From positions 1 through 26,137 of the IMG/VR virus record IMGVR_UViG_3300031951_001063: a stretch of DNA of 26,137 nt; one strand, 5' to 3'. Shown piece by piece: positions 1,927 to 22,887 of the stretch. The position numbers and the translations under genes were made by a program. The stretch comes from a virus. Numbering within the stretch: position 1 is the first letter of the stretch; each line of letters begins with the position of its first letter. The notes under the pieces are model-generated. The model was given only the letters and a program-made list of their open reading frames with translations, was not told the DNA's origin and made no database searches.

Positions 1927-1968
1927 TGGCACAGGAGCATCCCACAAGTGCTCCTTTTGGTCTATAAT
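1927..1968 (+). promoter_or_regulatory. TGGCACA box plus -10 TATAAT promoter (class A copy)
   Basis: TGGCACA lies at 1927-1933 and TATAAT at 1963-1968, 36 bases apart start to start. The leader ACTCTCATAAGCAACCAAACCG runs directly into the ATG at 1991. A nearly identical leader follows the -10 at 12230. No TTGACA-like -35 is present. First of 17 copies of this arrangement in the window. Confidence 0.7.
1934..1958 (+). terminator. Rho-independent terminator
   Basis: GGAGCA (1934-1939) pairs with TGCTCC (1949-1954) across a 9-base loop and is followed by TTTT. It closes the unit ending at 1921 and sits between the TGGCACA box and the -10 of the next unit. Confidence 0.7.
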
Positions 1969-1990
1969 ACTCTCATAAGCAACCAAACCG

Positions 1991-2164
1991 ATGGACTACG
2001 AAACTCACATAGACATCCACCAGTATTTCCCTGGTGATAGATTTTATTACAAACTCAAAGTCACAGATGTAATGAATATGGATTACTACTATGATGGTAG
2101 TGCTCTAACTCTTGATAATGTTATGGAATGTATCCAACTTCACCTCAAACAACATCAGAACTGA
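1991..2164 (+). CDS. hypothetical protein, first gene of second unit
   Basis: 57 residues with many Tyr and Asp (QYFPGDRFYYKLKV, MDYYYDGSAL). The start lies 23 bases after the TATAAT at 1963 with no Shine-Dalgarno sequence; the start/leader pattern matches other cassette genes. It ends one base before the next ATG. No domain recognised. Confidence 0.8.
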   Translation: MDYETHIDIHQYFPGDRFYYKLKVTDVMNMDYYYDGSALTLDNVMECIQLHLKQHQN

Positions 2165-2165
2165 A

Positions 2166-2495
2166 ATGATTGACCTTTCACAACTGACTGAAGAACAACT
2201 CAACGAACTTGAACTTCAAATCCAAAAGCATAAGGAACAACAGAAGGTAAAGGATGCTTTGGAAAATCTAAAAGGTTATAAAGTAACTTTTTATATGAGG
2301 TTTGACCCTGAAAAGCATAAAGATAATGATATGCTTACAGATGATGGAGAACTTGACCCAAACATTTTTGCTGATTATCTGTGTGATAATCTTGTTACAG
2401 ACCTGATTAGAAATTTTGAATTGTATGGTTATGAAGATGTGAGTTATCCTATTGTGGAGATAGCAACAGAAGAAGAAATTGAACACCAATTTTGA
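2166..2495 (+). CDS. hypothetical acidic protein
   Basis: 109 residues beginning MIDLSQLTEEQLNELELQIQ. The first 35 residues form a helical coiled coil; the rest is a mixed alpha/beta segment with FYMRFDPEKHKDNDMLTDDG. I chose the start at 2166 because it follows the preceding stop by one base, whereas an upstream in-frame ATG at 2112 would overlap that gene by 53 bases. Function unknown. Confidence 0.8.
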   Translation: MIDLSQLTEEQLNELELQIQKHKEQQKVKDALENLKGYKVTFYMRFDPEKHKDNDMLTDDGELDPNIFADYLCDNLVTDLIRNFELYGYEDVSYPIVEIATEEEIEHQF

Positions 2496-2505
2496 GGAAA
2501 CTGAA

Positions 2506-2727
2506 ATGACTGATACACAAAAACTCCAATTCCTTCTCACCAAACTTCAAGAAACTGCAGACAGTAAGCATTGTTATGATGAATGTGGTGATGATTATTC
2601 TCCTTCAGATGCTGGAAATTATGATGATGCTTTTGATGTAGGATGTGAGTATGGTGAAATCACATTTGCTCGTGATTTGCTTCAACAACTTAAACTTCAA
2701 ACACAAATTGAACCTCATTTGAAATGA
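2506..2727 (+). CDS. cyanophage hypothetical protein (YSPSDAGNYDDAFDVG type)
   Basis: 73 residues. The central motif YSPSDAGNYDDAFDVGCEYG followed by FARDLL matches a small protein I recall from many cyanomyoviruses (inference from memory). The start at 2506 has GAGGAAA just upstream (2493-2499), one of the few convincing ribosome binding sites here. It overlaps the next gene by ATGA. Function unknown. Confidence 0.82.
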   Translation: MTDTQKLQFLLTKLQETADSKHCYDECGDDYSPSDAGNYDDAFDVGCEYGEITFARDLLQQLKLQTQIEPHLK

Positions 2728-2915
2728 CTGACTTCTCTCAAGAACGATTTGTTGATTTAGGACAAACACTCTATGTTGAGTGGTTAAAAACTTGTTCTAA
2801 TATGCAAAGTGCTACTGAACAAGAACGACGAGAAATCTTTAAGTTTTGTGCTGAACTTTCATTTGAAGCAGCAGAAGAGTTTGTTAAAGTATTCCGTCAT
2901 CAAGAGGACAACTGA
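2724..2915 (+). CDS. hypothetical helical protein
   Basis: 63 residues, mostly helix, beginning MTDFSQERFVDLGQTLYVEW. ATGA overlap upstream and one base to the next ATG. A frame from 2809 reads through this gene but is the extension of the following gene and is ignored before 2917. Function unknown. Confidence 0.8.
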   Translation: MTDFSQERFVDLGQTLYVEWLKTCSNMQSATEQERREIFKFCAELSFEAAEEFVKVFRHQEDN

Positions 2916-2916
2916 A

Positions 2917-3243
2917 ATGACTATCAAAACAACTGAACTTCTCAAACTCTTTTCCAAAGCAAAACAACTTGATTTAAGTGTTGAGGTTTGTGAGGACAAA
3001 GATGGTGATTATGTAATTCGTATCTATGAAATGTTCCGTCCAGAAAACTTTGATGAAAAGGTAGTCATCACTCAAAAAGGTGATAGTGATTGGGATAAGG
3101 GTGATTATAGTTTTGATTGTATGATGGATATTCTTGATGAACAGTTGGAAGAAAAACGACAAGAAGAAATCAAAGAACAAAAACGACAAGAACTTCTTGC
3201 TCGTTTGACTGATGAAGAAAAGGAATTGCTTGGAGTAAAATGA
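2917..3243 (+). CDS. hypothetical protein with charged C-terminal helix
   Basis: 108 residues starting MTIKTTELLKLFSKAKQLDL. An N-terminal alpha/beta domain (to about 70) is followed by a long Glu/Lys/Arg helix (LEEKRQEEIKEQKRQELLAR). The start at 2917 is preferred over in-frame ATGs upstream because it abuts the previous stop. Ends with ATGA overlap. Function unknown. Confidence 0.8.
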   Translation: MTIKTTELLKLFSKAKQLDLSVEVCEDKDGDYVIRIYEMFRPENFDEKVVITQKGDSDWDKGDYSFDCMMDILDEQLEEKRQEEIKEQKRQELLARLTDEEKELLGVK

Positions 3244-3425
3244 CTGAACGAGTAAAATTCAAAACTATCACACGAGTGATTGACCCAAAGACACGCATTC
3301 ATTATCTTGATGCTGTTGATGAGAATGGATACCACTGGACTGCCGAAATGTCACCACACGAAGAGAGATGGTTGTGTTATACTGATATTTGGAAAAAAGA
3401 CCCTCAACAACCTTACGATCTATGA
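3240..3425 (+). CDS. hypothetical protein
   Basis: 61 residues with a compact beta-rich pattern (FKTITRVIDPKTRIHYLDAV, then GYHWTAEM). It is coupled on both sides by 4-base overlaps. Trp and His are frequent in the second half. Similar small beta proteins occur in cyanophages, but I assign no function. Confidence 0.8.
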   Translation: MTERVKFKTITRVIDPKTRIHYLDAVDENGYHWTAEMSPHEERWLCYTDIWKKDPQQPYDL

Positions 3426-3790
3426 CTTACAAGTGCCCTCGTTGTTCTACCAGAGTAAAAGACTGGTCTGGTGATGATCCTAAATGTGGATTTGATAAGA
3501 ATGGAAACTTCCTTGAACATAACTGGAACTGTGCAACTCTCAATGCTCTCCGTGAGATGAATGGAGAAGAAACTTGGTGTGATAACAATTATGTGAAAGT
3601 TGTAAGTTGTTCTGATGTTGGATTTGGTATCCTGACTTGGTATAAACAACGTGGGCAAACTGATGACTTCCGTGATGGTTATTTTGATAGAGGAACTCTA
3701 CGCTATGCACAAGAACTTTTGGGTGACGTAGAAGTTGATTATAGTGATTGGGATAATGTAAGTCTTGATTGGGAGGATGATAAAGAATGA
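3422..3790 (+). CDS. phage zinc-ribbon protein (CPRC...WSGDDPKC)
   Basis: 122 residues. The N-terminus has a CPRC knuckle, then VKDWSGDDPKCGF and EHNWNCATLNAL. Four cysteines in this spacing make a zinc-binding fold likely. The middle (FGILTWYKQRGQTDD) and the zinc region match a conserved hypothetical family found widely in phages, as I recall it. The start at 3422 overlaps the previous stop by 4 bases; the in-frame ATG at 3389 lies inside the previous gene. Role unknown. Confidence 0.85.
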   Translation: MTYKCPRCSTRVKDWSGDDPKCGFDKNGNFLEHNWNCATLNALREMNGEETWCDNNYVKVVSCSDVGFGILTWYKQRGQTDDFRDGYFDRGTLRYAQELLGDVEVDYSDWDNVSLDWEDDKE

Positions 3791-4056
3791 CCCTTGAAGA
3801 AATCCTAGAAGAATACGGACAGGAAGTATTAGATACTTACTATGAACTCTTCCCAGACAAAAGTATTTCAAAGTTTCCTGACCGTTTCTGTGGCTTTGTT
3901 GGTGAGTATGAAGATTTTGTGCTAGACTGTTATCATTCAACTGGTAGTGATGAACTGGAAACACTTGAAGACTTTATGAATGGTGTATTTCAGGAGTATT
4001 ATTACTATTGCGAAAAAACAGCAACAGGATTTGTATTTTATAATGAAGACCGATGA
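3787..4056 (+). CDS. hypothetical acidic protein
   Basis: 89 residues, strongly acidic (TLEEILEEYGQEVLDTYYEL; EYEDFVLDCYHSTGSDELE). The charge and length could fit a DNA-mimic or antirestriction-type protein, but I see no defining motif and do not assert that. ATGA overlaps at both ends. Confidence 0.82.
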   Translation: MTLEEILEEYGQEVLDTYYELFPDKSISKFPDRFCGFVGEYEDFVLDCYHSTGSDELETLEDFMNGVFQEYYYYCEKTATGFVFYNEDR

Positions 4057-4298
4057 TTAAACATCCAGCAAATGATTGGGACTTTGATGATACAATTGAA
4101 GAAGCATTTCAGGAATGGTTCAACGACCTTTGTGGTGGTTTTTCACTTCGTAGTGAATGGTTCTATGGTGATGCGGAGGTAGAAGATGTGAAGACCCGTC
4201 AGGATTTGATGTATAAGTGGTTGCACTCTGCGTTCGTTGTGGGGTATAATATGGGAAGAATGGAAGGACTTGAAGTAGGACTGACGAACAATGACTGA
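4053..4298 (+). CDS. hypothetical protein
   Basis: 81 residues, acidic and Trp/Phe-rich at the N-terminus (DWDFDDTIEEAFQEWFNDLC). The C-terminus VGYNMGRMEGLEVGL is a short helix of the kind that ends other proteins of the array. Coupled by ATGA upstream; overlaps the next gene by 8 bases. Confidence 0.82.
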   Translation: MIKHPANDWDFDDTIEEAFQEWFNDLCGGFSLRSEWFYGDAEVEDVKTRQDLMYKWLHSAFVVGYNMGRMEGLEVGLTNND

Positions 4299-4812
4299 AA
4301 CCGACATCTCAAAAGTTCTCATAGAAGGAGACTACGCAACCATTATGGGTGTGAAGTATAAGAGAGTGGAAGAACCAAAGACACCAGTAGAAGAAGCATA
4401 TAAAGAAGTTTTCGGCAAGTATCCTGAAACTGGTTCAGATGCAACTAAATTTGATATTCAATCCTGGAATATTTTTCGGTATGGTTGGAATGCAGCACAA
4501 GTAAAAGATGGGTGCCCTGAACCACCTGATGAACCAGAGTATTATGATGAAGTAGAGTGGGATGAGAAAGATAATCCAAACCTTCAAAAGATTATTGATA
4601 AAATGGTAGAGGAACGTAAAGCACAAAAACTCTACAATATCCTAAAAGATAGATGGTGTTTTTCCAAAGATGCTTGTGAAGAGATTGTAGAGGCAGTTGC
4701 TGAATGGTTGCCGAAAGAACAATCTGCTGCTGGTTCACAGAATGTAGATACTGAATTGCTTGTGGATGGTTTCAACGATTGTTTGCGTAAAATGAAGGAG
4801 ATGTTGCGATGA
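4291..4812 (+). CDS. hypothetical protein, two-part WLP/GWN family
   Basis: 173 residues. It starts with a GVKYKRVEEPKTP segment shared with the gene at 508, then FDIQSWNIFRYGWNAAQVKD, a first GWN element. The C-terminus has VAEWLPKEQSAAG and VDGFNDCLRKMKEML, a second element. It therefore looks like an internally duplicated member of the 84/508 family. Overlaps of 8 and 4 bases tie it to its neighbours. Function unknown. Confidence 0.85.
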   Translation: MTETDISKVLIEGDYATIMGVKYKRVEEPKTPVEEAYKEVFGKYPETGSDATKFDIQSWNIFRYGWNAAQVKDGCPEPPDEPEYYDEVEWDEKDNPNLQKIIDKMVEERKAQKLYNILKDRWCFSKDACEEIVEAVAEWLPKEQSAAGSQNVDTELLVDGFNDCLRKMKEMLR

Positions 4813-6258: not shown

Positions 6259-6427
6259 AAAATCTAAAATCTTCTATAATGTCTGGTGCTGTGCTTATCA
6301 ACGCAGGGGATTGTATCGTGGCACACAACGAGAACAAAGAGAGCATGATACAATATTAATGTGCTTAAATATGAAAGATGTTAAGTTCTATCAATTTGAT
6401 ACCGAAAAACCTCATTATCTGAAATGA
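6251..6427 (+). CDS. small basic hypothetical protein
   Basis: 58 residues, MNEKSKIFYNVWCCAYQRRG then KFYQFDTEKPHYLK. The frame was chosen over an alternative ATG at 6255 (34 codons) because it runs to a stop that overlaps the next ATG by ATGA (6424-6427). Has a CC pair and a basic middle. Function unknown. Confidence 0.7.
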   Translation: MNEKSKIFYNVWCCAYQRRGLYRGTQREQREHDTILMCLNMKDVKFYQFDTEKPHYLK

Positions 6428-8370: not shown

Positions 8371-8527
8371 TTCTCTCAAAATATCACAGAACGAAGATGG
8401 GTCTTTTACTATGGACTGGGACCCACAAGACCCAAAGTGGTCCTGGTTGAATGGGTTGACATCCAAAGAAGTTCAGGTTATTATGGATCAAGCAATCAAG
8501 GATTACATCAATGACCTCCGACTTTGA
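8339..8527 (+). CDS. cyanophage hypothetical protein (DGSFTMDWDPQDPKWSWLN)
   Basis: 62 residues. SLKISQNEDGSFTMDWDPQD followed by PKWSWLNGLTSKEVQ is a pattern I recall from many cyanomyovirus small proteins. The start lies in the end of the zinc-ribbon frame, and the stop is 17 bases into the next gene. Function unknown. Confidence 0.82.
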   Translation: MSATNPNQENDSLKISQNEDGSFTMDWDPQDPKWSWLNGLTSKEVQVIMDQAIKDYINDLRL

Positions 8528-9173
8528 TTATAAAAAGTATTCTCTTGGACAACTTGAAACTTGGGTAACAGATGCTTTGACAAGCGCAGAAGCATCTCCA
8601 CAAGAAATCTATGATACTATCAAACGTGTTGTTGAAGAGGAATATTATCACTTCAAACATCATACTGAACGTTGTTATGAACTTTTGGCACTTCTGAATG
8701 GTAATGGTAATTCCATTCTTAAAGAAATGAAGGATGATTGTATGCCACCTTGGGGACATAGTGATATGGAAGCACTTCGATATACCGAAGAAGAATTGAA
8801 TTCTATGTGCGATAAAGCGGCATCAGATGAAGAAAAGAATAAATGCCGTGAATATAATTTGCGTGAAGCAGAATACTACAACAAACGTGTAGAACTTGAT
8901 GCTAAGCAAGATAAAGTAGTTAAGTGGCAACTTCCCATTGAGATTGATGGTGCGAGTGGAGAATATTATATCCAGTTTCCTGATGACTTGATGGAGGCAG
9001 CAAATATTAAAGAAAATGATATGGTAGAATGGGTAGATCAGGATGATGGTTCTTATCTTCTCAAAAAAGTTGAAAAGAGAACTGAAAAAGTTAGTCCCAA
9101 TAATATGACTTGGGATCAAGCAATGGAAGGTGGTTGGTCTATGACTGATGATGGTTTTTGGATCAAAAAATGA
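8511..9173 (+). CDS. hypothetical protein with C-terminal AbrB/SpoVT-like segment
   Basis: 220 residues, the longest product in the first 9 kb. Residues 1-70 are helical. About residues 145-190 (IDGASGEYYIQFPDDLMEAA, then IKENDMVEWVDQDDGSYLLK) have the pattern of a swapped-hairpin AbrB/MazE-type domain: a PTGE-like turn, a strand, 'lpddl', then DMVEW. The same pattern occurs alone in the gene at 24834. Such domains bind DNA in transition-state regulators and antitoxins; whether this copy does is inference. The final WDQAMEGGWSMTDDGFW is a separate tail. Confidence 0.8.
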   Translation: MTSDFDYKKYSLGQLETWVTDALTSAEASPQEIYDTIKRVVEEEYYHFKHHTERCYELLALLNGNGNSILKEMKDDCMPPWGHSDMEALRYTEEELNSMCDKAASDEEKNKCREYNLREAEYYNKRVELDAKQDKVVKWQLPIEIDGASGEYYIQFPDDLMEAANIKENDMVEWVDQDDGSYLLKKVEKRTEKVSPNNMTWDQAMEGGWSMTDDGFWIKK

Positions 9174-10475: not shown

Positions 10476-10616
10476 ATGTCTAGATTTACTGATCTTTTCC
10501 AAGAACCAACTCCTACACCAGAACCAACCACAGAACCTGCGAAAGTAGAAGAGGTTGTGGAAGTTAAGACTGAAAAAGTAAACAAAGCACCTAAGAAAAA
10601 GTTCACAATGGATTGA
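10476..10616 (+). CDS. Pro/Glu-rich small protein
   Basis: 46 residues, MSRFTDLFQEPTPTPEPTTE, then a Val/Glu/Lys-rich segment and a basic end (KAPKKKFTMD). Low-complexity PTPEPT linkers like this occur in short cyanophage proteins, often downstream of structural or late genes. No domain. A box/hairpin/-10 cassette follows its stop. Confidence 0.75.
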   Translation: MSRFTDLFQEPTPTPEPTTEPAKVEEVVEVKTEKVNKAPKKKFTMD

Positions 10617-10632
10617 GTGACACTTTAAAAAC

Positions 10633-10674
10633 TGGCACACGGGGGTTCTCAGGGCACTGAGGACCTCTTATAAT
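10633..10674 (+). promoter_or_regulatory. class A cassette: TGGCACA, hairpin, TATAAT
   Basis: TGGCACA at 10633-10639 and TATAAT at 10669-10674 (36 apart). Between them GTTCTCAG (10645-10652) pairs with CTGAGGAC (10657-10664) over a GGCA loop, an 8-bp stem. The upstream context GACACTTTAAAAACTGGCAC is nearly repeated before the copy at 12013. Drives the gene at 10700. Confidence 0.7.
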
Positions 10675-11592: not shown

Positions 11593-12000
11593 ATGAAAAA
11601 TCAAAACGGTTTTATTGATTCTGGTGTTGCTCTCGTAGCAGTTGGTGTTGCTGTGATTGGTGGACTTATCTTTATTGGTGGTCCACAATACAATGTATGG
11701 CAACAATCGCTCGCTGGTAAGGCAGAACTGCAAAAGGCAGAATATACTCGTCAGGTAGCAGTGTTGGAAGCACAAGCAAAGAAAGATTCTGCACAGCAAC
11801 TTGCTGATGCTGAAATCATCCGTGCTACTGGTGTTGCCAAAGCAAACCAAATCATTGGTGATTCGCTGAAAGATAACCGTGAGTATCTCCAATATCTGTA
11901 CATTACTGGACTGGAAGATGGTAGCAAGAATGGTAATGTGACCATCTATGTGCCCACGGAGAATGGTCTTCCTGTGCCAACTCTACAAATGAATAAGTGA
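11593..12000 (+). CDS. truncated HflC/SPFH-like membrane protein
   Basis: 135 residues. Residues 9-32 form one membrane helix (VALVAVGVAVIGGLIFIGGP). The body (SLAGKAELQKAEYTRQVAVL, ADAEIIRATGVAKANQIIGD, YLQYLYITGL, NVTIYVPTENGLPVP) matches the helical C-terminal region of HflC/prohibitin-type proteins. The SPFH domain itself is absent. I recall proteins of this size and pattern in many phages. HflKC modulates the FtsH protease in bacteria; a similar effect here is inference. GAGG at 11583 serves as ribosome binding site. Confidence 0.8.
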   Translation: MKNQNGFIDSGVALVAVGVAVIGGLIFIGGPQYNVWQQSLAGKAELQKAEYTRQVAVLEAQAKKDSAQQLADAEIIRATGVAKANQIIGDSLKDNREYLQYLYITGLEDGSKNGNVTIYVPTENGLPVPTLQMNK

Positions 12001-12012
12001 CACTTTAATAAC

Positions 12013-12053
12013 TGGTACACGACCCGCCCACAAGGCGGGTTTTCTGCTATAAT
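12013..12053 (+). promoter_or_regulatory. class A cassette (variant TGGTACA) with TATAAT
   Basis: TGGTACA at 12013-12019 and TATAAT at 12048-12053 (35 apart). The sequence before it, GACACTTTAATAACTGG, repeats that at 10619. Leader to ATG 12078 contains GAGG and TTGAGGAA, a plausible ribosome binding site. Confidence 0.6.
12022..12043 (+). terminator. Rho-independent terminator after HflC-like gene
   Basis: ACCCGCC (12022-12028) pairs with GGCGGGT (12034-12040) around CACAA, followed by TTT. It sits between the TGGTACA box and the TATAAT of the next unit. Confidence 0.8.
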
Positions 12054-12077: not shown

Positions 12078-12203
12078 ATGAATCTGACTGAGTTGATTGA
12101 AGAAATCCGTGAGATTGAAATCTATGGTTCTGATCCAGCAGACTGGATGGGTTATCTTGGTTCTGACGACTACTGGGTGCCAGATGAGGAACTGGCATAC
12201 TAA
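12078..12203 (+). CDS. 41-residue acidic protein
   Basis: MNLTELIEEIREIEIYGSDP then DWMGYLGSDDYWVPDEELAY. Strongly acidic. Its last codons include TGGCATAC, the degenerate TGGCACA box of the next cassette, so the end of the protein and the regulatory site share sequence. Single-gene unit. Function unknown. Confidence 0.75.
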   Translation: MNLTELIEEIREIEIYGSDPADWMGYLGSDDYWVPDEELAY

Positions 12204-12235
12204 CCCTCTCAGGGGTGCCTAGGTGCCCCTATAAT
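12193..12235 (+). promoter_or_regulatory. class A cassette (TGGCATA) with TATAAT
   Basis: TGGCATA at 12193-12199 and TATAAT at 12230-12235 (37 apart). Between them AGGGGTGCCTAGGTGCCCCT (12211-12230) forms a hairpin that runs into the -10. The leader ACTCTCATACGCAACCAACCG closely repeats the one after 1963. Confidence 0.65.
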
Positions 12236-12854: not shown

Positions 12855-13373
12855 ATGTCTTACATCACTCTTTCTGGATATGGTTATTCTAAACTCCTCT
12901 GTAAGGATGTTACCACTTGGTTTCTGAATAAGTTTTTACCACGCCATAAGATTGAAGTAGAGATTCTGCACCGTGGATTGAAACGTGAGCAGGTTTATGG
13001 ATACTGTGATTATGTGGGGGAATCTTATCGCCCTCGTGAGTTTCTGATTGAACTTCAAACCCACATGGATGAGGAGTTGTATATAAAAACTCTTTTGCAT
13101 GAACTGGTCCACCTGAGGCAGTGGGTGGTTGGTTCACTGCGGATGCGACGTGGAAAAATGCATTATGGTAAAATAGCAGTCGAACTTTATGACTATTGGC
13201 ATCAACCACACGAAATAGAGGCAAGAGAGCAAGAAGAAACCTTATATTATGAATACCTACGACGGCATTGGACCGTATCTGAGCATATTCTAAGTCAGAT
13301 TCCATATGTGAAGTATGTGCCACCTACCAAAGTGGCACAGTTCTTCCCGAACCGCCTGATGGTGGCGCTATAA
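12855..13373 (+). CDS. SprT-like zinc metallopeptidase domain protein
   Basis: 172 residues from ATG 12855 (a TTG at 12834 would add seven). The motif LLHELVHLRQW gives HExxH at H82-E83-H86. It is followed by GKMHYGK and PHEIEAREQEETLYYEY, where a Glu/His after the helix would be the third zinc ligand, as in SprT/gluzincin-like proteins. The N-terminus has KIEVEILHRGLKREQVYGYC, a beta region. SprT/Spartan proteins act near DNA in eukaryotes; in phages the substrate is unknown. The 3' end carries the TGGCACA of the next cassette. Confidence 0.83.
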   Translation: MSYITLSGYGYSKLLCKDVTTWFLNKFLPRHKIEVEILHRGLKREQVYGYCDYVGESYRPREFLIELQTHMDEELYIKTLLHELVHLRQWVVGSLRMRRGKMHYGKIAVELYDYWHQPHEIEAREQEETLYYEYLRRHWTVSEHILSQIPYVKYVPPTKVAQFFPNRLMVAL

Positions 13374-13374
13374 T
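13333..13374 (+). promoter_or_regulatory. class A cassette overlapping the end of the SprT-like gene
   Basis: TGGCACA at 13333-13339 and TATAAT at 13369-13374 (36 apart); the SprT-like stop (TAA 13371-13373) lies inside the -10. The box encodes Val-Ala-Gln in that protein. CGCC (13353-13356) can pair with GGCG (13364-13367). Drives the gene at 13399. Confidence 0.65.
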
Positions 13375-14661: not shown

Positions 14662-14871
14662 ATGAAAATTACAGAAGCAACAGTTAATTTAAATGTACAT
14701 GAGATGGGAGTGATTCTCTCTGCACTTCAAAATCTTGAACACGCAGATGAAAATCGTATTGCCAGAGAATATGGCAGTGTGCCAGCACTGTATAATAAAC
14801 TTTATACGGTCTTCGAGCGAATGGACACTTCTGAAACTGGACTACGGTACGACGTGGTTCCCTCCTTCTGA
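14662..14871 (+). CDS. hypothetical protein
   Basis: 69 residues (NLNVHEMGVILSALQNLEHA, ALYNKLYTVFERMDTSETGL). The family is familiar from cyanophages: a helical protein with the start ITEATVNLNVHE. Its 3' end holds TGGACTA and a TATAAT follows 4 bases after its stop. Function unknown. Confidence 0.78.
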   Translation: MKITEATVNLNVHEMGVILSALQNLEHADENRIAREYGSVPALYNKLYTVFERMDTSETGLRYDVVPSF

Positions 14872-14880
14872 GGTTATAAT
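14838..14880 (+). promoter_or_regulatory. class A-like promoter (TGGACTA, TATAAT)
   Basis: TGGACTA at 14838-14844, inside the preceding gene, and TATAAT at 14875-14880 (37 apart). The leader ACAGAGGTAATCGGGACACA resembles the one after 13369. Weaker box than other copies. Drives 14905. Confidence 0.5.
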
Positions 14881-16929: not shown

Positions 16930-17144
16930 AACCAATCTTTGTAGGTGCTTATTGTGTATTGTCTGCATTGTCTGCATATGCATTGACAGGACCAGTAACT
17001 GATAAACAGGCAGTGAATCGTACACTTAAAATGTGTAATGAGAAACCATTAGAGTGTAAGTTCAAGTATGATATTATTCGGTATAATGAGACAGGACAAG
17101 TACCTTATAAGGAAGAGAAACCAGTAGAGAAGAAAACGAAGTAA
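16926..17144 (+). CDS. exported small protein, last gene before noncoding hub
   Basis: 72 residues beginning MKPIFVGAYCVLSALSAYAL, a signal peptide or anchor (possible cleavage at AYA). The mature part has two Cys (KMCNEKPLECKFKYDI) and a Lys/Glu-rich tail. The ATG at 16926 overlaps the previous stop by ATGA; the in-frame ATG at 16866 is rejected. Similar exported proteins with a KMCNEKP-like motif occur in cyanophages. Confidence 0.8.
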   Translation: MKPIFVGAYCVLSALSAYALTGPVTDKQAVNRTLKMCNEKPLECKFKYDIIRYNETGQVPYKEEKPVEKKTK

Positions 17145-17376
17145 ATGGTATTGATTTATACCATTTAACCTTAATTTAATTTAAAAAATATATTAAAAAA
17201 CATATAGTTATTGTTTATACAGTTCTCAATAAGGTGTAATTAATTGAGAATCAATAAGGTTTTATTGTTGAGAATAGGGTGTTTAATACCTTGTTTTATG
17301 TGCTTATAATCTTATAAATGCTTCCTGGTATTATGATTATAAGACCTTATAAGACCTTATAAGACCTTATAAAGGG
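17145..17376. other. AT-rich noncoding stretch, possible duplex-unwinding region
   Basis: No plausible gene. Very AT-rich to 17340 (for example TTAATTTAATTTAAAAAATA). It holds TTCTCAAT (17223-17230)/ATTGAGAA (17243-17250) as an inverted repeat, a second related arm CAATAA...TTATTG (17252-17269), and ends in tandem TTATAAGACC units. TTCTCAATAAG recurs at 18012. Confidence 0.55.
17337..17376. repeat. tandem TTATAAGACC repeat (3 units plus degenerate fourth)
   Basis: TTATAAGACC starts at 17337, 17347 and 17357, then TTATAAAGGG at 17367. Period 10, close to one helical turn, so bound proteins would align on one DNA face. Related CTTATAA strings occur at 17302, 17311 and 17488. Confidence 0.85.
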
Positions 17377-17508: not shown

Positions 17509-17614
17509 CTAGACGAGATTATGTGTCGAGAAGAACATAATTCTCGACGAGACCGCATATATATTGGTATGAATCTCGACGAGACACTATATTGAATCTC
17601 GTCGAGTTTTATGG

Positions 17615-17620
17615 TATAAT
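17615..17620 (+). promoter_or_regulatory. -10 box TATAAT before the 17651 gene
   Basis: TATAAT 31 bases before ATG 17651, lying between two CTCGACGAG sites (17598 and 17639), an arrangement suited to repression. No TGGCACA box and no good -35. Confidence 0.5.
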
Positions 17621-17650
17621 ACGAAAGCGTTCACAAATCTCGACGAGCTT

Positions 17651-17794
17651 ATGTACGACGACTACGATCTCGACTACACATACACAGGCAACGATTACGC
17701 GGATCTCGACGAGTATTATACACAGGATCTCGACGAGGATTATGCACGTGACGGGCAGGATTATCAAGATCTTGCGTATCGCCATTATGCATGA
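17651..17794 (+). CDS. Asp/Tyr-rich small protein encoded across the palindromes
   Basis: 47 residues, MYDDYDLDYTYTGNDYADLD then EYYTQDLDEDYARDGQ. About half of the residues are Asp, Glu or Tyr. The palindromes read in frame as DLDE, so protein repeat and DNA repeat coincide. It follows a TATAAT by 31 bases. A competing frame (17592-17819) is Thr/Ser/Ile/Arg-rich and looks like a shadow. An acidic DNA-mimic-type protein is possible, but nothing proves translation. Confidence 0.5.
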   Translation: MYDDYDLDYTYTGNDYADLDEYYTQDLDEDYARDGQDYQDLAYRHYA

Positions 17795-17977: not shown

Positions 17978-17984
17978 TGTGCCA
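17943..17984 (-). promoter_or_regulatory. possible minus-strand class A promoter
   Basis: On the minus strand TTAAACTGGCACAC (17990-17977) matches the + strand boxes, with TGGCACA at 17984-17978. TAGACT follows at 17948-17943, 36 bases from the box, the usual spacing. It would transcribe antisense into the palindrome cluster. No gene lies on that strand. Confidence 0.4.
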
Positions 17985-18010
17985 GTTTAAATATTGCCAC
18001 AGGACCTCTT

Positions 18011-18045: not shown

Positions 18046-18176
18046 TTTTATGGTAGGAGGAGTGGCGATGTATTGTCGTCAGCAGGGATACCTCTCCCCT
18101 CATTAGATTTCTTATAAGATAGCACGGCACCGGTGCCCAGATCAAGGGGTCTTATGCCAGTTCTTCTAGTGGCACA
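18046..18176 (+). ncRNA. structured duplicated element, copy 1
   Basis: TTTTATGG, then AGGAGGAGTGGCGA...CGTCAGCAGGGATACC and CTCTCCCCTC. TGGCG pairs with CGTCA as an inner hairpin, enclosed by a GGAGGAG/CTCTCC outer stem. A 12-base palindrome GGCACCGGTGCC lies at 18126-18137, and the block ends in TGGCACA at 18170. Copy 2 at 21447 has the same order and almost the same length. No known RNA family recognised. Confidence 0.5.
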
Positions 18177-18212
18177 AGAGGGGTTGTGATCTGCCACGTG
18201 GCGGGTTATGTT
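18170..18212 (+). promoter_or_regulatory. class A cassette, TGGCACA and TATGTT
   Basis: TGGCACA at 18170-18176 and TATGTT at 18207-18212 (37 apart). GTGGCACAA (18169-18177) folds back on TTGTG and TGCCAC (to 18197). The leader TTCGTTCCTGAGA recurs after the next copy. Drives 18235. Confidence 0.55.
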
Positions 18213-18234: not shown

Positions 18235-18438
18235 ATGATTTTTCTCACTTCCACCAATCACGGTTGTGTGTATACTTTGAGTCAGGAAGATGGCGATGAG
18301 TTGTATTATGCTCCGATCTATGCAAATGGTAATATTAACCTCGAAGAATTCGCTCCCGTTGATATGAACGAAGTCGATATGGATGATATGGAGATTTATG
18401 ATATCATGCGTCGTCTTAAAGTTATGAATGAGGTGTGA
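18235..18438 (+). CDS. cyanophage hypothetical protein
   Basis: 67 residues from ATG 18235, MIFLTSTNHGCVYTLSQEDG then DELYYAPIYANGNINLEEFA and a very acidic end. The start is chosen because the leader TTCGTTCCTGAGA precedes it as it does the next gene; the ATG at 18208 lies within the -10 box. The ELYYAPI...NINLEEF pattern is known from cyanophage small proteins. Function unknown. Confidence 0.75.
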   Translation: MIFLTSTNHGCVYTLSQEDGDELYYAPIYANGNINLEEFAPVDMNEVDMDDMEIYDIMRRLKVMNEV

Positions 18439-18450
18439 CGGTTTAGCAAG

Positions 18451-18493
18451 TGGCACAAGATCGGTTGAAATCCGATCTTCCCCCTGATAAATT
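18451..18493 (+). promoter_or_regulatory. class A cassette, TGGCACA, hairpin, TAAATT
   Basis: TGGCACA 18451-18457; AAGATCGG (18457-18464) pairs with CCGATCTT (18472-18479) with a 7-base loop; TAAATT at 18488-18493 is the weak -10 (37 apart). Leader TTCGTTCCTGAGA repeats that of the gene before. Confidence 0.6.
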
Positions 18494-18843: not shown

Positions 18844-19028
18844 CAATCAACCGCGAAGAACTCATCGCTGATTATGCTCAGCAGATCCTAGATGGAATGG
18901 ACATGAAAACAATGGAGTGTTTCGTTTATGATACTTTGAGGGACAATCTTTCGTCCTATTCTGATGAAGAATTGATCGCTGAGGTTACAGAATACAATCC
19001 CGAACTGCTGGAGGATGTGACAGTCTAA
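18840..19028 (+). CDS. cyanophage hypothetical protein (ILDGMDMKTMECFVYD)
   Basis: 62 residues, NREELIADYAQQILDGMDMK and SDEELIAEVTEYNPELLED. A conserved helical protein that I recall from many cyanomyoviruses. ATGA coupling upstream; a TGGCACA cassette with a G6/C6 hairpin follows its stop. Confidence 0.85.
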   Translation: MTINREELIADYAQQILDGMDMKTMECFVYDTLRDNLSSYSDEELIAEVTEYNPELLEDVTV

Positions 19029-19032
19029 GAAG

Positions 19033-19075
19033 TGGCACAAGGGGGGTTGCAATGCCCCCCGATCTGGTCCATACT
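19033..19075 (+). promoter_or_regulatory. class A cassette, TGGCACA, G6/C6 hairpin, CATACT
   Basis: TGGCACA 19033-19039; GGGGGG (19041-19046) and CCCCCC (19055-19060); CATACT 19070-19075 (37 apart). The leader runs to ATG 19100. Confidence 0.7.
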
Positions 19076-19099: not shown

Positions 19100-19447
19100 A
19101 TGCGTAAGATCGAACGTGAAATGAACGCCGCCATTCTGAACAATCAGAACTGGCAAAAAGACAACACTTCTGTTCAATTCGATTCTGAAACTAACGAGTC
19201 GAAAGTGTTTCTTTACGGCAACCACATTGCCACCATTGGTGATGATTTCGTGCAGATCTTTGATGGTGGGCATCAGTCCAACACCACCAAATCCCGCCTG
19301 AATGCGATTCTTCAAGAGCATGGAATCAAGGGCGAATGTGTATTCCAACGCAACTGGAATTGGTTCGTTCATAAGTTCGTTGGACAGGCAGGAACTTCAC
19401 CTGTTTACAATGAGTATGAATTCAAAGATGGGTTCATGTTCGCCTGA
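19100..19447 (+). CDS. conserved cyanophage protein (QIFDGGHQSNTTKSRLNAIL)
   Basis: 115 residues from ATG 19100 (MRKIEREMNAAILNNQNWQK), chosen because it follows a CATACT -10 by the usual distance; an ATG at 19052 lies upstream of that box. VFLYGNHIATIGDDFVQIFD, GGHQSNTTKSRLNAIL and FQRNWNWFVH form a compact beta-alpha protein common in phages and cyanophages. The final EYEFKDGFMFA is also typical. Function unknown. Confidence 0.83.
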   Translation: MRKIEREMNAAILNNQNWQKDNTSVQFDSETNESKVFLYGNHIATIGDDFVQIFDGGHQSNTTKSRLNAILQEHGIKGECVFQRNWNWFVHKFVGQAGTSPVYNEYEFKDGFMFA

Positions 19448-19452
19448 CGAAC

Positions 19453-19495
19453 TGGCACATCGGGTGCCCCACACGGCACCCTCACCCCCTATACT
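19453..19495 (+). promoter_or_regulatory. class A cassette, TGGCACA, hairpin, TATACT
   Basis: TGGCACA 19453-19459; GGGTGCC (19462-19468) pairs with GGCACCC (19475-19481); TATACT 19490-19495 (37 apart), then TTCAGTTCA, the first copy of the conserved transcript start seen in the GC-rich island. Confidence 0.75.
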
Positions 19496-19516: not shown

Positions 19517-20083
19517 ATGGAAACCTTCCTCGAGACTTCCTTCCAGAACGTTCGTTCTTCCAAGCGTACTGATGAGTTTCATAAAGTTCTTCTAGATGAA
19601 GTTCTGAATGCTAATCCTGCGTGGGCAGAGTATGATTGGCAGTATGAATACCAACTGCCCGTTGACGGTTTTGGAGGTACTTTTGACATTGACATTGCTG
19701 GGTTTCGTGATGGTCAACTTAAAGTTGCGATTCTTGGCAAAGCACTCAACAGCAACATCAACAAAAACATCAAAAACTACGCTAACACTAGTGTAGGTGA
19801 GGCAGCACGATTGATGTATGCTCCTGACATTCTGCTCGAGAAAGTGTTGTTCGTGAGTGTTCTTCCCCGTGTGGCACCACGTTTCAACAAAGCAGGCGAA
19901 GTTCAGGGTTACGATGATGTCGTAAGTGCCAAAGAGCGTACCAAGATTAACACCGTGCTGCACTTTCAATACGGTGGTAAAGTGGAAGCAATCGACCTGT
20001 TCTTTGACATTGAAGGTGTCAAGACTCTGCAAGAGTTTCACACCGTTAGCATCACAAACCTGGATACTCTGACTCTGGTGTGA
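19517..20083 (+). CDS. hypothetical protein, possible PD-(D/E)xK-like fold
   Basis: 188 residues. FDIDIAGFRDGQLKVAILGK places Asp residues and a Lys in a strand-turn-strand that recalls the D...(E/D)xK core of nuclease-fold proteins, but the E/D-x-K triad is not intact (ILGK). LLEKVLFVSVLPRVAPRFNK and KINTVLHFQYGGKVEAIDLF are further strands. Single-gene unit with its own cassette promoter. I treat the nuclease idea as weak. Confidence 0.8.
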   Translation: METFLETSFQNVRSSKRTDEFHKVLLDEVLNANPAWAEYDWQYEYQLPVDGFGGTFDIDIAGFRDGQLKVAILGKALNSNINKNIKNYANTSVGEAARLMYAPDILLEKVLFVSVLPRVAPRFNKAGEVQGYDDVVSAKERTKINTVLHFQYGGKVEAIDLFFDIEGVKTLQEFHTVSITNLDTLTLV

Positions 20084-20095
20084 CAGTAGGATAGG

Positions 20096-20138
20096 TGGCA
20101 CAAGACCTCTTGTGCTGCCTCCCTGTTCGTGCCATACT
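20096..20138 (+). promoter_or_regulatory. class A cassette, TGGCACA in hairpin, CATACT
   Basis: TGGCACA 20096-20102 is itself part of a stem: GCACAAG (20098-20104) pairs with CTTGTGC (20109-20115) around ACCT. CATACT at 20133-20138 (37 apart). Leader to ATG 20165. Confidence 0.7.
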
Positions 20139-20164
20139 ACGTTCATCAGCAATCAACCCGACCG

Positions 20165-20413
20165 ATGAAACTCTACATCCTGAAAGAAGTCCTCTACGAC
20201 TACACTGACGGAATGGCAGTTATCGCTGCTGAATCTATGCCTCAGTGTGAACAGATCTTTATGGAAGAGTTTGGGTATTTTACTGACTGCAATGGTGAAC
20301 GTGTGAAAGATGAAAAGGTGCAAAAAGAGTTCAACAATGCTAAGGTTACTATCATCGAAAGCGTAGGACTTGACGAGGCAGGTATTGTAGAGTATGTGTA
20401 CGGTGGGGGGTGA
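20165..20413 (+). CDS. hypothetical protein
   Basis: 82 residues, MKLYILKEVLYDYTDGMAVI then AAESMPQCEQIFMEEFGYFT. Beta-alpha-beta start, charged middle, Gly-rich end (VEYVYGGG). Start taken at the ATG after the leader ending CCGACCG. Single-gene unit. Function unknown, cyanophage-like. Confidence 0.8.
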   Translation: MKLYILKEVLYDYTDGMAVIAAESMPQCEQIFMEEFGYFTDCNGERVKDEKVQKEFNNAKVTIIESVGLDEAGIVEYVYGGG

Positions 20414-20425
20414 CACCCCGACAAG

Positions 20426-20468
20426 TGGCACACACCCCCTTGTGCTGCCCCTTGATTCGTGCCATACT
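20426..20468 (+). promoter_or_regulatory. class A cassette, TGGCACA, CATACT
   Basis: TGGCACA 20426-20432; GCACA can pair with TGTGC (20441-20445); CATACT 20463-20468 (37 apart). The part CTTGTGCTGCC...TTCGTGCCATACT closely repeats the copy at 20109-20138. Drives 20490. Confidence 0.7.
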
Positions 20469-20489
20469 GATTCCATCAACACAAGACCG

Positions 20490-21398
20490 ATGCAAAACAA
20501 GCACCAAGAGCACCCCGAAGATACCATCCTGACAGGTGATCTGTCCGTGCTGGATTGGTTCACTGCTGCTGGACATCTGAGCGTTAAGATGGACGGTTCT
20601 CCTGCAATCGTGTGGGGAATTGATCCTGCAACTGGTACATTCTTCGTTGGTACAAAAGCAGTATTCAACAAAAAGAAGATTCGTATTGCACACTCTCACG
20701 ATGAGATTGACCAGCATTATGAAGGCGACGTTGCAGTCATTCTTCATTCGTGCTTTGATCATCTGCCCCGTGTGAATGACATCATTCAGGGTGATTTTAT
20801 CGGGTTTGGTGGTGACACTGAGTACAATCCTAACCTGATTACGTATCAGTTCCCTGAGGTAGTTTCCCAAGAAATTATCATCGCACCTCACACCCGTTAT
20901 GAGGCAAACGATGACCTTCGTGATAGTTGGGCAATCCCTCTCACTGTGAACCTGGAATCTACCGATTCTGTTCTATTCGTGAAACCCGATGCCTGGATTG
21001 CACACGGACAGACTTCGTTCGCTGATGTCAAGGAAGTGTGTAAGTTTGCCCGCCAAATGGCAACCACCTGCCAGTTCGTGACTGATAAGGAAGCGGCAAA
21101 GATCAAGCAACAGATTAACGCTTGCATCCGTGCTGGTGAAGAGATCAACCCCGAAGATTTTGATTGTGACACTAATCTGATGCGCTTGTGGGCATTGGTA
21201 AAGTCAATCAAAGACGATTGTTTGTTCCTCTGCCGTAACAACGGACCCGCTGCTTATCTGGGTTCTCCCTATAAAGGTTATGAGAGAATTGATGCCGAAG
21301 GTTATGTGTTGACCAATGAGTTTGGTATGTTCAAACTTATCAACCGTGAGGTATTCTCTCACGCTAACTTTAACTTCGGTCGGTTTCAGGTAGCATAA
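20490..21398 (+). CDS. nucleotidyltransferase / RNA-DNA ligase-like protein
   Basis: 302 residues, the longest in the window. LSVKMDGSPAIVWGIDPATG carries the KxDG motif of the ligase/capping-enzyme superfamily (K33 would be adenylated). FFVGTKAVFNKKK follows as an additional conserved stretch, DIIQGDFIGFGGD could supply the motif III/IIIa acid, and AEGYVLTNEFGMFKLINREV has EGxV and FKL as motifs IV and V. It resembles a cyanomyovirus family sometimes described as RNA ligase-like (from memory). The partner substrate is unknown; nick or RNA-end repair would fit. Start from the cassette leader; strong terminator right after. Confidence 0.83.
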   Translation: MQNKHQEHPEDTILTGDLSVLDWFTAAGHLSVKMDGSPAIVWGIDPATGTFFVGTKAVFNKKKIRIAHSHDEIDQHYEGDVAVILHSCFDHLPRVNDIIQGDFIGFGGDTEYNPNLITYQFPEVVSQEIIIAPHTRYEANDDLRDSWAIPLTVNLESTDSVLFVKPDAWIAHGQTSFADVKEVCKFARQMATTCQFVTDKEAAKIKQQINACIRAGEEINPEDFDCDTNLMRLWALVKSIKDDCLFLCRNNGPAAYLGSPYKGYERIDAEGYVLTNEFGMFKLINREVFSHANFNFGRFQVA

Positions 21399-21402
21399 GA
21401 TA

Positions 21403-21427
21403 GGGGGCACAATCGCCCCCTTTTTTT
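21403..21427 (+). terminator. strong Rho-independent terminator
   Basis: GGGGGC (21403-21408) pairs with GCCCCC (21415-21420) around ACAATC, followed by seven T. It ends the ligase-like unit and is the best terminator in the window. Confidence 0.92.
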
Positions 21428-21432
21428 ATACT
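21427..21432 (+). promoter_or_regulatory. possible -10 TATACT for structured element copy 2
   Basis: TATACT overlaps the end of the U-tract and lies 20 bases before the duplicated element. TAGCATA at 21391-21397, 36 bases upstream, is a degenerate TGGCACA at the usual distance. Weak. Confidence 0.35.
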
Positions 21433-21446
21433 TTTATTTTTTATTA

Positions 21447-21576
21447 TTTTATGGCAGGGGGCGTGGCGACCGTTTTCGTCATCAGGGCTACCCCGCCCCT
21501 CCTTCGCTTGTGACCTTAGTATAGGGCACCAGGCACCCCATACAACCCACCTTGTGCCACCTTCTGAACTGGCACT
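21447..21576 (+). ncRNA. structured duplicated element, copy 2
   Basis: TTTTATGG then AGGGGGCGTGGCGA...CGTCATCAGGGCTACC and CCGCCCCTCC. The same TGGCG/CGTCA inner hairpin as copy 1; the outer stem GGGGCG/CGCCCC replaces GGAGGAG/CTCTCC, including a C-G to A-U exchange. The second half (GGCACCAGGCACCCC, TTGTGCCA, then TGGCACT) parallels copy 1. 123 bases from start to TGGCAC versus 124 in copy 1. Confidence 0.5.
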
Positions 21577-21612
21577 CTGCCCCTGACTCTACCCCCACTC
21601 TGCCCCTATACT
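21570..21612 (+). promoter_or_regulatory. class A cassette, TGGCACT and TATACT
   Basis: TGGCACT 21570-21576, TATACT 21607-21612 (37 apart), then GATCTCAGTTCA. Drives the first gene of the GC-rich island at 21635. Confidence 0.65.
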
Positions 21613-21634
21613 GATCTCAGTTCAAACGACAGCG

Positions 21635-21796
21635 ATGCGCTTTGAAGTCCGTTACCAGACCCCCTACAATGCCTGCGAGTGGCGCTCACAGTGGTTCCCC
21701 ACCCTGGCAGAGGCAGAGCGTATGGTAGAGTTCTACCGCTCCTGTGGGTCACCCTCCCACGTCGCACCGTCCTCCCTGGCACAACTGGAACGATGA
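21635..21796 (+). CDS. hypothetical protein, first gene of GC-rich island
   Basis: 53 residues, MRFEVRYQTPYNACEWRSQW then FPTLAEAERMVEFYRSCG. The strand-loop-helix plan with a WFPTLAEAERMV helix is common in small phage proteins. Codons end mostly in C or G, unlike genes before 17 kb. The leader is AGTTCAAACGACAGCG with no ribosome binding site. Overlaps the next gene by ATGA. Confidence 0.75.
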   Translation: MRFEVRYQTPYNACEWRSQWFPTLAEAERMVEFYRSCGSPSHVAPSSLAQLER

Positions 21797-21879
21797 TCAC
21801 CGTAGCGTTCTTCCTGATCGGTTATACTATGGGAGCAGGGCACGTCCTGATCCTGCAACGTATCCTCCGCCGCCGATGA
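21793..21879 (+). CDS. 28-residue membrane peptide
   Basis: MITVAFFLIGYTMGAGHVLI then LQRILRRR: one membrane helix with a strongly basic cytoplasmic tail. ATGA overlaps at both ends. A longer frame through it, from 21679, has no support. Confidence 0.65.
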   Translation: MITVAFFLIGYTMGAGHVLILQRILRRR

Positions 21880-22043
21880 TCAACGCTCTGACCCGCTCAC
21901 GATCCCCTGAGTTTCACCGCGCTACGATGCTCCGCCTGACGATCGCTGCTCTGCTGCTCTGGGGGTTCTGGGGTCCACTCTACCCCGTGCGTAGTGTGAC
22001 AGCGGACCTACTGGACACTACCGCCGACTTCCTGCGCCGCTGA
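21876..22043 (+). CDS. small membrane protein
   Basis: 55 residues. A basic start (INALTRSRSPEFHRATMLRL) precedes one hydrophobic span (TIAALLLWGFWGPLYPV), then RSVTADLLDTTADFLRR. Its last codons include TGGACAC, a degenerate box for the next promoter. An internal start at M18 (MLRLTIAALL) is equally possible. Coupled by ATGA to the gene before. Confidence 0.7.
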   Translation: MINALTRSRSPEFHRATMLRLTIAALLLWGFWGPLYPVRSVTADLLDTTADFLRR

Positions 22044-22054
22044 CCCCTTATACT
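22012..22054 (+). promoter_or_regulatory. class A-like promoter, TGGACAC inside coding sequence, TATACT
   Basis: TGGACAC 22012-22018 and TATACT 22049-22054 (37 apart), then GATCTCAGTTCA. The leader AGTTCACAAGCGAACCCG is identical to that before 23608. Drives 22079. Confidence 0.6.
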
Positions 22055-22078
22055 GATCTCAGTTCACAAGCGAACCCG

Positions 22079-22267
22079 ATGACCCGCACCAACGTTCTTC
22101 CCATGGACCTCTGCACCGTCACCCTGACTGAGGCACAGTGGAGCACCATCCGCACCGCCGTTCTCTGCCTGGCAGTCGACTGCCGTGTCGCTGGTAAGGG
22201 CACCGACGCAGACTACTACCTGAATGCATACAACCTCCTGCGGGATGCGATGGGGATGGACGCCTGA
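22079..22267 (+). CDS. hypothetical helical protein
   Basis: 62 residues. VTLTEAQWSTIRTAVLCLAV and ADYYLNAYNLLRDAM. Helical protein with a hydrophobic Cys-containing core. It has its own promoter and a G6/C6 hairpin after its stop. GC-rich codon use. Function unknown. Confidence 0.8.
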   Translation: MTRTNVLPMDLCTVTLTEAQWSTIRTAVLCLAVDCRVAGKGTDADYYLNAYNLLRDAMGMDA

Positions 22268-22272
22268 GGCAC

Positions 22273-22316
22273 TGGCACACGGGGGGTGGAACCCCCCTAC
22301 CCTCACCCCTTATACT
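22273..22316 (+). promoter_or_regulatory. class A cassette, TGGCACA, G6/C6 hairpin, TATACT
   Basis: TGGCACA 22273-22279; GGGGGG (22281-22286) pairs with CCCCCC (22292-22297), loop TGGAA; TATACT 22311-22316 (38 apart); GATCTCAGTTCA follows. The T of TGGCACA is 50 bases from AGTTCA, as in the copy at 22604. Confidence 0.8.
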
Positions 22317-22340
22317 GATCTCAGTTCAAACGAACCACCA

Positions 22341-22601
22341 ATGGCAACCGCAACCTACCAGACCAACCTCACCGATCGCACCTACAACGGTTGGACTAAC
22401 TACGAAACCTGGAATGTTGTGCTCTGGATTGAGAATGATGAGAGCATCTACAACTTCATTCAAGAGAATGAGATCTGCTGCTATGAGGAACTGCTGGACG
22501 CATTCTATGAGTTTGGCACAACAGAAACCCCTGATGGTGTAAAGTGGAACGACCCTAAGATCAACCGCGCTGAGATCAACGGCGACGTGTTCGACTTCTA
22601 A
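22341..22601 (+). CDS. conserved phage protein (NGWTNYETWNV)
   Basis: 86 residues from ATG 22341. RTYNGWTNYETWNVVLWIEN and DESIYNFIQE form a signature found in many phages and some bacteria, known to me only as a conserved domain of unknown function. The end DPKINRAEINGDVFDF is acidic. The upstream ATG at 22224 lies inside the previous gene. Own promoter; cassette follows. A useful anchor that the island is coding and phage-like. Confidence 0.88.
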   Translation: MATATYQTNLTDRTYNGWTNYETWNVVLWIENDESIYNFIQENEICCYEELLDAFYEFGTTETPDGVKWNDPKINRAEINGDVFDF

Positions 22602-22603
22602 AC

Positions 22604-22647
22604 TGGCACACGGGGGGCACCAACCCCCCATCCTGACCCTCTATACT
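22604..22647 (+). promoter_or_regulatory. class A cassette, TGGCACA, G6/C6 hairpin, TATACT
   Basis: TGGCACA 22604-22610; GGGGGG (22612-22617) pairs with CCCCCC (22624-22629), loop CACCAA; TATACT 22642-22647 (38 apart); then GACCTCAGTTCA. One of the clearest copies. Confidence 0.8.
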
Positions 22648-22669
22648 GACCTCAGTTCACAGACCGACC

Positions 22670-22840
22670 ATGACTTCTACCCTTGCCCTCTCCCTGCTCC
22701 GTCGCGGTGCCAATGGCGCTCAGATCCTGGAGATCCTGGACTCTATCACCAACGACGTAGAGCAGGCAGGGATCGACGACTGCGCCGCCCATTATGCTGC
22801 CATCAGTGCCCAACCTACTCTGAGCGAAGTCCAGTTCTGA
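22670..22840 (+). CDS. small phage protein (LRRGANGAQILEILDSI)
   Basis: 56 residues, MTSTLALSLLRRGANGAQIL then EILDSITNDVEQAGIDDC. Matches a short helical protein I know from several phages with 'LLR.G..G.QIL.ILD'. Start 23 bases after the -10, no ribosome binding site. GC-rich codons. Function unknown. Confidence 0.8.
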   Translation: MTSTLALSLLRRGANGAQILEILDSITNDVEQAGIDDCAAHYAAISAQPTLSEVQF

Positions 22841-22843
22841 TAG

Positions 22844-22887
22844 CGGCACAACGGAGGGGGATGACCCTTCCCTTTTGCCCCTATACT
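22844..22887 (+). promoter_or_regulatory. class A cassette, CGGCACA, hairpin, TATACT
   Basis: CGGCACA 22844-22850; GGAGGGG and CCCTTCC form a stem between about 22853 and 22872, followed by CTTTT; TATACT 22882-22887 (38 apart); then GATCTCAGTTCA. Drives 22910. Confidence 0.7.

Follow-up and report, generated by a model that had tools for sequence, protein, structure and literature searches.

A symmetric 24-bp dyad at a fixed distance from the -10 box marks a candidate class of activator-dependent promoters in T4-like cyanophages

T4-like cyanophages are abundant viruses of the ocean. In bacteriophage P2, an example of activator-dependent transcription from an upstream dyad, the centre of the dyad lies near -55 and the activator makes contact with the alpha subunit. 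The promoters served by P2 Ogr and P4 delta have no usual sigma-70 promoter, and combine an upstream inverted repeat with a small phage activator (PMC3931495, PMC5694545). T4-like cyanophages have been reported to lack motA and asiA, and to lack T4-like middle promoters (PMC5780444). Here we analyse a virus record of 26,137 bases from IMG/VR (IMGVR_UViG_3300031951_001063; the whole stretch is called the window below), in which a 24-bp dyad, TGTGnCA-S-YT-N4-AA-S-TGGCACA, recurs at a fixed distance before -10 boxes. Comparison with other phages leads us to regard this dyad as the likely site at which a dimeric activator, probably encoded by the phage, would bind and recruit the host sigma-70 polymerase.

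The promoters of P2 Ogr and P4 delta would be the closest working analogue, since the cyanophage dyad is likewise predicted to be centred at about -54 and has no good -35 behind it. However, membership fails on the sequence element: TGT-N12-ACA was found in none of the 17 window sites and none of the 181 contig sites (contig sites, here and below, are those among the matches listed from a scan of viral contigs), the cyanophage element being TGTGnCA-N10-TGnCACA. Furthermore, the P2 and P4 promoters serve virion genes, whereas the cyanophage dyads serve a region of small genes. A zinc-finger expression (CX2CX22CX4C) applied to the open reading frames (ORFs) of partial genomes gave unconvincing matches. 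T4 middle promoters resemble the cyanophage promoters in their good -10, poor -35, extra upstream element, occurrence in a T4-like phage and presumed use of host polymerase. In contrast, the MotA box lies at -30 and is not a dyad, and the initial annotation of the window correctly set its repeat apart from it: no MotA box match exists in any of the 17 window or 181 contig sites. The early promoters of T4-like phages read by host sigma-70 share the -10 sequences TATAAT and TATACT, and their genes lie in the presumed early region, but they need a -35 and no activator, whereas in the cyanophages the dyad is conserved and the -35 is not.

The initial annotation, made from the letters alone, described 17 boxes of the TGGCACA type in the window, each with a -10 box 35–38 bases on, as a 7-bp unit at -46 of the transcript. 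All 17 boxes were confirmed at their coordinates, and a -10-like hexamer lies 35–38 bp 3' of every one, with some hexamers corrected (CATACT at +37 for boxes 19033, 20096 and 20426, TAAATT at +37 for box 18451, and a poor TTATGT for box 18170). TGGCACA alone, with up to one mismatch, shows modest enrichment (93 in the window against 74 ± 8 in shuffles), and exact boxes at 6319, 21777, 22514 and 25965 belong to no cassette; the cassette, meaning the box plus a -10 at fixed spacing, is in contrast far beyond chance. The earlier reading overlooked an inverted left arm that lies exactly 17 bp upstream of TGGCACA, which is thereby the right arm of the 24-bp dyad (profile of the window sites, (T/A)GTGACA-S-YT-N4-AA-S-TGGCACA). 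The left arm is an independent test, because the sites had been picked by box and -10. At offset 17 the sequence TGTGnCA is matched at a mean of 4.2 of 6 positions over the 17 sites, compared with 1.5 as background, and none of 100,000 resamplings reached 4.2. All 17 sites have C at position -12. The 7-bp unit at -46 is replaced by this dyad, with a predicted centre near -54.

The scan of viral contigs for both arms and a -10 returned at least 120 stretches, compared with 5 when the left arm was scrambled, and 113 of the 120 stretches listed encode protein related to ORFs of named cyanophages. In these sites the arms, and partly the -10, are conditioned on the search pattern, and only unselected positions and held-out phages are used as evidence. 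The inner positions not selected by the search are nevertheless kept in 162 distinct sites, with S, T and T in the left half and A, A and S in the right half. A -10 is present in 155 sites. In 121 of them it begins 36–37 bp from the first base of the box, and in 144 the base 12 positions beyond the first of the hexamer is a purine; the -35 region carries at most 0.23 bit, which agrees with the earlier statement that no -35 is conserved. The purine likely marks the start of transcription; because of its position and the 36–37 bp spacing, the centre of the dyad would fall near -54. From the first base of the -10 to the start codon the median distance is 30 bp (middle half, 28–34 bp). Therefore, given the fixed distance from dyad to -10, the cassette is fixed from dyad to ATG.

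Phages that played no part in defining the sites carry the same arrangement. A matrix of the window sites gave 18 plus-strand matches in the S-SRM01 region and 0.6 in shuffled sequence. After refinement on window and contig sites, the matrix was run on six other phages, yielding 89 strand-hits against 1 on reversed sequence, and 34 -10s at 35–38 bp against 1.8 expected. The final test used eight T4-like cyanophages unused for site choice (P-HM2 and P-SSM2 added), with each dyad counted once at a score >18. A -10 was found at 35–39 bp on either strand, mostly at 36 or 37, for 49 of the 60 held-out dyads, while other offsets averaged 0.5. The matrix scan of relatives suggested in the initial annotation thus bears out its promoter class, a box and -10 at constant spacing independent of any hairpin; in these held-out phages the box is not equally common with no -10 at that distance.

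On the opposite strand, -10s read from the left arm also peak at 36–37 bp, with 26 at 35–38 bp compared with 5.1 per four offsets elsewhere. Because the peak falls at the same distance, the dyads would also serve divergent promoters, and a symmetric bound protein touching polymerase from either side is proposed as the simple explanation. The minus-strand promoter on the window dyad at 21553–21576, overlooked previously, is a clear case. This two-way geometry bears on a different proposal, that the dyad is the operator of a repressor silencing the small-gene promoters later in infection. Dyads are as typical of repressors as of activators, and T4-like infections include a shut-off of early genes. 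However, the strict 36–37 bp spacing in both directions fits contact with polymerase and not simple occlusion at -54, and the missing -35 is again expected for polymerase contact. We regard a repressor as improbable and prefer activation.

Orthologous promoters separate the dyad from its surroundings. Before the DUF7717 gene of five phages the dyad always lies 64 bp before the ATG, and nucleotide identity falls from 68% in the dyad to 33% in the spacer and 22% in the flank. In one DUF7717 gene, S-PM2p056, the annotated start lies inside its own dyad promoter (17030–17111 in the S-PM2 region), and the ATG at 17111 fits the promoter better. The cassettes could also be ordinary sigma-70 promoters behind terminators, with the box a duplicated stretch that has no function of its own; a good -10 is indeed found at most sites, together with a weak remaining -35 signal. 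This we consider scarcely credible, given that the dyad outlasts the divergence of flank and spacer in orthologous promoters and that dyads with unrelated flanks recur throughout the T4-like cyanophages.

Several results do weigh against an activator-dependent promoter. Eleven of the 60 held-out dyads have no good -10, although TATTCT-like hexamers at the right place in several Syn9 and Sf-CH5 sites temper this shortfall. A weak residual -35 persists (mean 3.04 of 6 matches, against 2.56 at random positions), and a test for mutual exclusion between dyads and good -35s found none. S-SM2 and S-ShM2 have only two pattern matches each, and the dyad system is unequally used among T4-like cyanophages. 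Finally, no dyad-binding protein was identified among the candidates examined.

The initial annotation placed a GC hairpin in most spacers and fused a terminator to the promoter. The hairpin holds for the window, where folding reaches -7 kcal/mol or lower in 12 of the 17 spacers and is weak or missing in the other five. It fails as a general rule, since a stem of at least 5 bp occurs in 56 of 147 contig sites (26 when shuffled) and about one-third of the contig spacers have no hairpin. A stem followed by a T-run, found in 22 of the 147 (3 when shuffled), is confined to a minority; because of this, the predicted terminators of upstream genes, though often accommodated in the spacer, do not define the cassette, and an intrinsic terminator in every copy is rejected. 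The enriched terminators and the folding of the window spacers could still mean that the repeat works as RNA, either as part of a terminator or as a 3'-terminal hairpin of the upstream gene. The arms themselves pair incompletely, with A opposite G at central positions, and at their -10/-1 positions GG or CC accounts for 105 of 162 contig sites and GC or CG for 39. These mostly non-pairing combinations argue that the arms are not an RNA stem, and an RNA hairpin element was rejected for lack of compensatory pairing. A function as RNA is very unlikely, considering also the hairpin-free third of the spacers and a spacing that is set relative to the -10 and recurs in mirror image on the other strand. 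On balance the initial annotation is partly supported: it appears right about a promoter and an activator, and wrong about the unit and an obligatory terminator.

The nearest named relatives of the window are the T4-like Synechococcus phages Sf-CH5, Bellamy, S-SRM01, S-SZBM1 and S-PM2. The right end of the window carries a glycosyltransferase-type gene, which in Bellamy and Sf-CH5 lies shortly before the baseplate genes gp25 and gp6; the window therefore spans the small-gene region before gp25. The dyad is not restricted to one phage, as had been supposed, and runs through the T4-like cyanophages. The pattern is present in S-SRM01, Bellamy, S-SZBM1, Sf-CH5, Syn9, S-PM2, P-HM2, P-SSM2, P-SSM4, S-RSM4, S-SSM7 and Syn1 (few copies in some). 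These are phages of Synechococcus or Prochlorococcus, and their dyads lie mostly in the region of small genes ahead of gp25. The scan found none in T4, KVP40, the pelagiphage HTVC008M, S-TIM5 or P-SSP7, and one match in Ma-LMM01 that we take as chance. The 291 cyanobacterial genomes contain 10 matches in all, not above chance. In a genome collection the 33 matches are scattered, and three lie in one Flavobacteriales metagenome bin. Contigs of this bin (TMED113; NHFO01000061/63) contain many dyads together with cyanophage-related genes, and are very likely misbinned cyanophage DNA. Because the dyad is widespread in cyanophages and scattered or rare in host and other genomes, the element is, judged by this distribution, one of phages and not of hosts.

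Early phage genes need host machinery for their transcription, and predicted NtcA and Pho sites in cyanophages have been published (PMC3037559). The dyad might accordingly be the target of a transcription factor of the host, exploited by the phage as is thought for NtcA and Pho regulation. We hold this to be unlikely, though less so than a repressor, in view of the few matches in the cyanobacterial genomes, the scatter of those in the genome collection (three lying in the apparently misbinned contigs), and a consensus that is neither NtcA nor Pho and has an arm spacing different from that of CRP. An activator encoded by the phages themselves is preferred because the site is absent from hosts.

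Several described motifs resemble parts of the cassette. Sites of the CRP and NtcA type share the TGTG...CACA inverted repeat upstream of a -10, but span 16 bp (CRP) and 14 bp (NtcA), whereas the cyanophage dyad spans 24 bp. Neither NtcA sites (GTA-N8-TAC) nor Pho boxes (CTTA-N7-CTTA) were found in the 17 window or 181 contig sites. CRP-type TGTGA-N6-TCACA, with up to two mismatches, matched 1 of 17 window sites and 46 of 181 contig sites, in which most of TGTGA had been preselected. The hexamer TGGCAC also belongs to sigma-54 promoters (TGGCAC-N5-TTGC), and TTGC at the required spacing is present in none of the 17 or 181 sites. The T4 late promoter sequence, TATAAATA, occurs at the -10 in none of the window sites and in 2 of the 181 contig sites.

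In the mechanism that we propose, a dimeric activator would sit on the 24-bp dyad, whose centre lies some 54 bp before the predicted transcript start, and recruit host sigma-70 RNA polymerase to a -10 box with no conserved -35. Transcription from each cassette would cover a single gene or a few small genes in a short operon, and the start codon would come after a leader of about 18 nt. The terminator of the upstream gene would often, but not always, lie within the 28–31 bp between dyad and -10, and the two-fold symmetry could drive a second promoter in the opposite direction. The small genes lie in a region expected to be expressed early. The sequences themselves display the dyad, its constant spacing, the position of the start codon, the spread over phages and the divergent -10s, while binding of a protein, activation in preference to repression, the source of that protein, the transcript start and the timing in infection are inferred. 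The wider proposal, that in T4-like cyanophages an activator of their own and a symmetric, two-way dyad at -54 took the place of the T4 MotA/AsiA step, forming an undescribed class across Synechococcus and Prochlorococcus phages that controls small and mostly uncharacterised genes before gp25, is in our judgement evenly balanced between right and wrong. No description of the dyad was found in the literature searched; the Syn9 transcriptome paper (Doron et al. 2016) lay outside that search, and an earlier mention is possible.

Viruses of both ocean and lake cyanobacteria carry the dyad at a fixed distance before many small genes of unknown function. Its fixed geometry gives a precise handle on how cyanophages order their genes without MotA and AsiA. 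The dyad predicts transcript starts nearly to the base, unites many unknown genes as one candidate regulon, could serve as bait for isolating the activator, and supplies a promoter with which reporters in laboratory cyanobacteria could be induced by infection.

Among possible activators, phrog_661 (Table 1) is present in most dyad-bearing phages. It was not detected in Bellamy, P-HM2 and S-SSM7, all of which bear dyads, and is weakly present in the dyad-free S-TIM5. PHM2_139, annotated as a 'DNA binding protein', matches a pyrimidine-dimer glycosylase family, and the 'transcriptional regulator' of Sf-CH5 matches a ferredoxin family; both were rejected. So was phrog_516, a conserved, very basic protein of 47 amino acids (aa) adjoining gp25, since nothing ties it to the dyad. 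In the S-PM2 region (26078–26221) and relatives, phrog_516 has 44–49 aa (66 in the Syn9 ORF) and a conserved C-terminus, and lies immediately ahead of gp25 in each of the seven named phages compared. A 220-aa protein at 8511–9173 of the window contains an AbrB/MazE-like segment and is related to an S-SRM01 protein so annotated.

Table 1. Dyad cassettes and one candidate regulatory gene in the window
Feature	Span	Strand	Dyad	Spacer	-10 box	ATG	Remarks
Cassette 1	1910..1968	+	1910-1933, GAGGACA-N10-TGGCACA	hairpin	TATAAT 1963	1991	
Cassette 2	10616..10674	+	10616-10639	hairpin	TATAAT 10669	10700	phrog_1987
Cassette 3	11996..12053	+	11996-12019	hairpin and T-run	TATAAT 12048	12078	
Cassette 4	12176..12235	+	12176-12199		TATAAT 12230	12257	DUF7717
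Cassette 5	13316..13374	+	13316-13339, perfect arms, TGTGCCA-N10-TGGCACA		TATAAT 13369	13399	
Cassette 6	14821..14880	+	14821-14844	no strong hairpin	TATAAT 14875	14905	phrog_500
Cassette 7	18153..18211	+	18153-18176		TTATGT 18206 (poor)	18235	minus-strand TATCTT, may be divergent
Cassette 8	18434..18493	+	18434-18457	hairpin	TAAATT 18488	18518	
Cassette 9	19016..19075	+	19016-19039	hairpin	CATACT 19070	19100	phrog_554
Cassette 10	19436..19495	+	good right arm, weak left arm	hairpin	TATACT 19490	19517	
Cassette 11	20079..20138	+	20079-20102	no hairpin	CATACT 20133	20165	dyad over upstream stop codon
Cassette 12	20409..20468	+	20409-20432	no hairpin	CATACT 20463	20490	DUF6267
Cassette 13	21553..21612	+	21553-21576	no hairpin	TATACT 21607	21635	
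Divergent promoter, cassette 13 dyad	21518..21576	-	minus-strand box 21559		TATACT 21523-21518		spacing 36
Cassette 14	21995..22054	+	21995-22018	no hairpin	TATACT 22049	22079	dyad within upstream ORF
Cassette 15	22256..22316	+	22256-22279, weak left arm	hairpin	TATACT 22311	22341	DUF7249
Cassette 16	22587..22647	+	weak left arm	hairpin	TATACT 22642	22670	
Cassette 17	22827..22887	+	partial left arm, right arm CGGCACA	hairpin	TATACT 22882	22910	
phrog_661	24834..25004	+					56-aa AbrB/MazE-like protein, possible DNA-binding dimer; weak lead, no link to dyad

Scans of the window with Rfam and for tRNAs gave no matches. Other repeats also occur in the window. A dyad-like TGTGCCA-N10-TGCCACA at 17978–18001 has no good -10 at the expected distance, and is followed by the inverted repeat TTCTCAATAAG/CTTATTGAGAA. 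The sequence CTCAGTTCA is a shared leader just after -10 boxes, with 10 plus-strand copies between 21616 and 24370; the five copies at 23.1–24.4 kb have no dyad, and three of those five have a TTGACC -35. The palindrome-like TCTCGACGAG, possibly another operator, has five copies on one strand of the window, clustered at 17542–17740, and ten over both strands of the S-SRM01 region. Upstream of this cluster, at 17340–17375, lie short tandem repeats of CTTATAAGAC.

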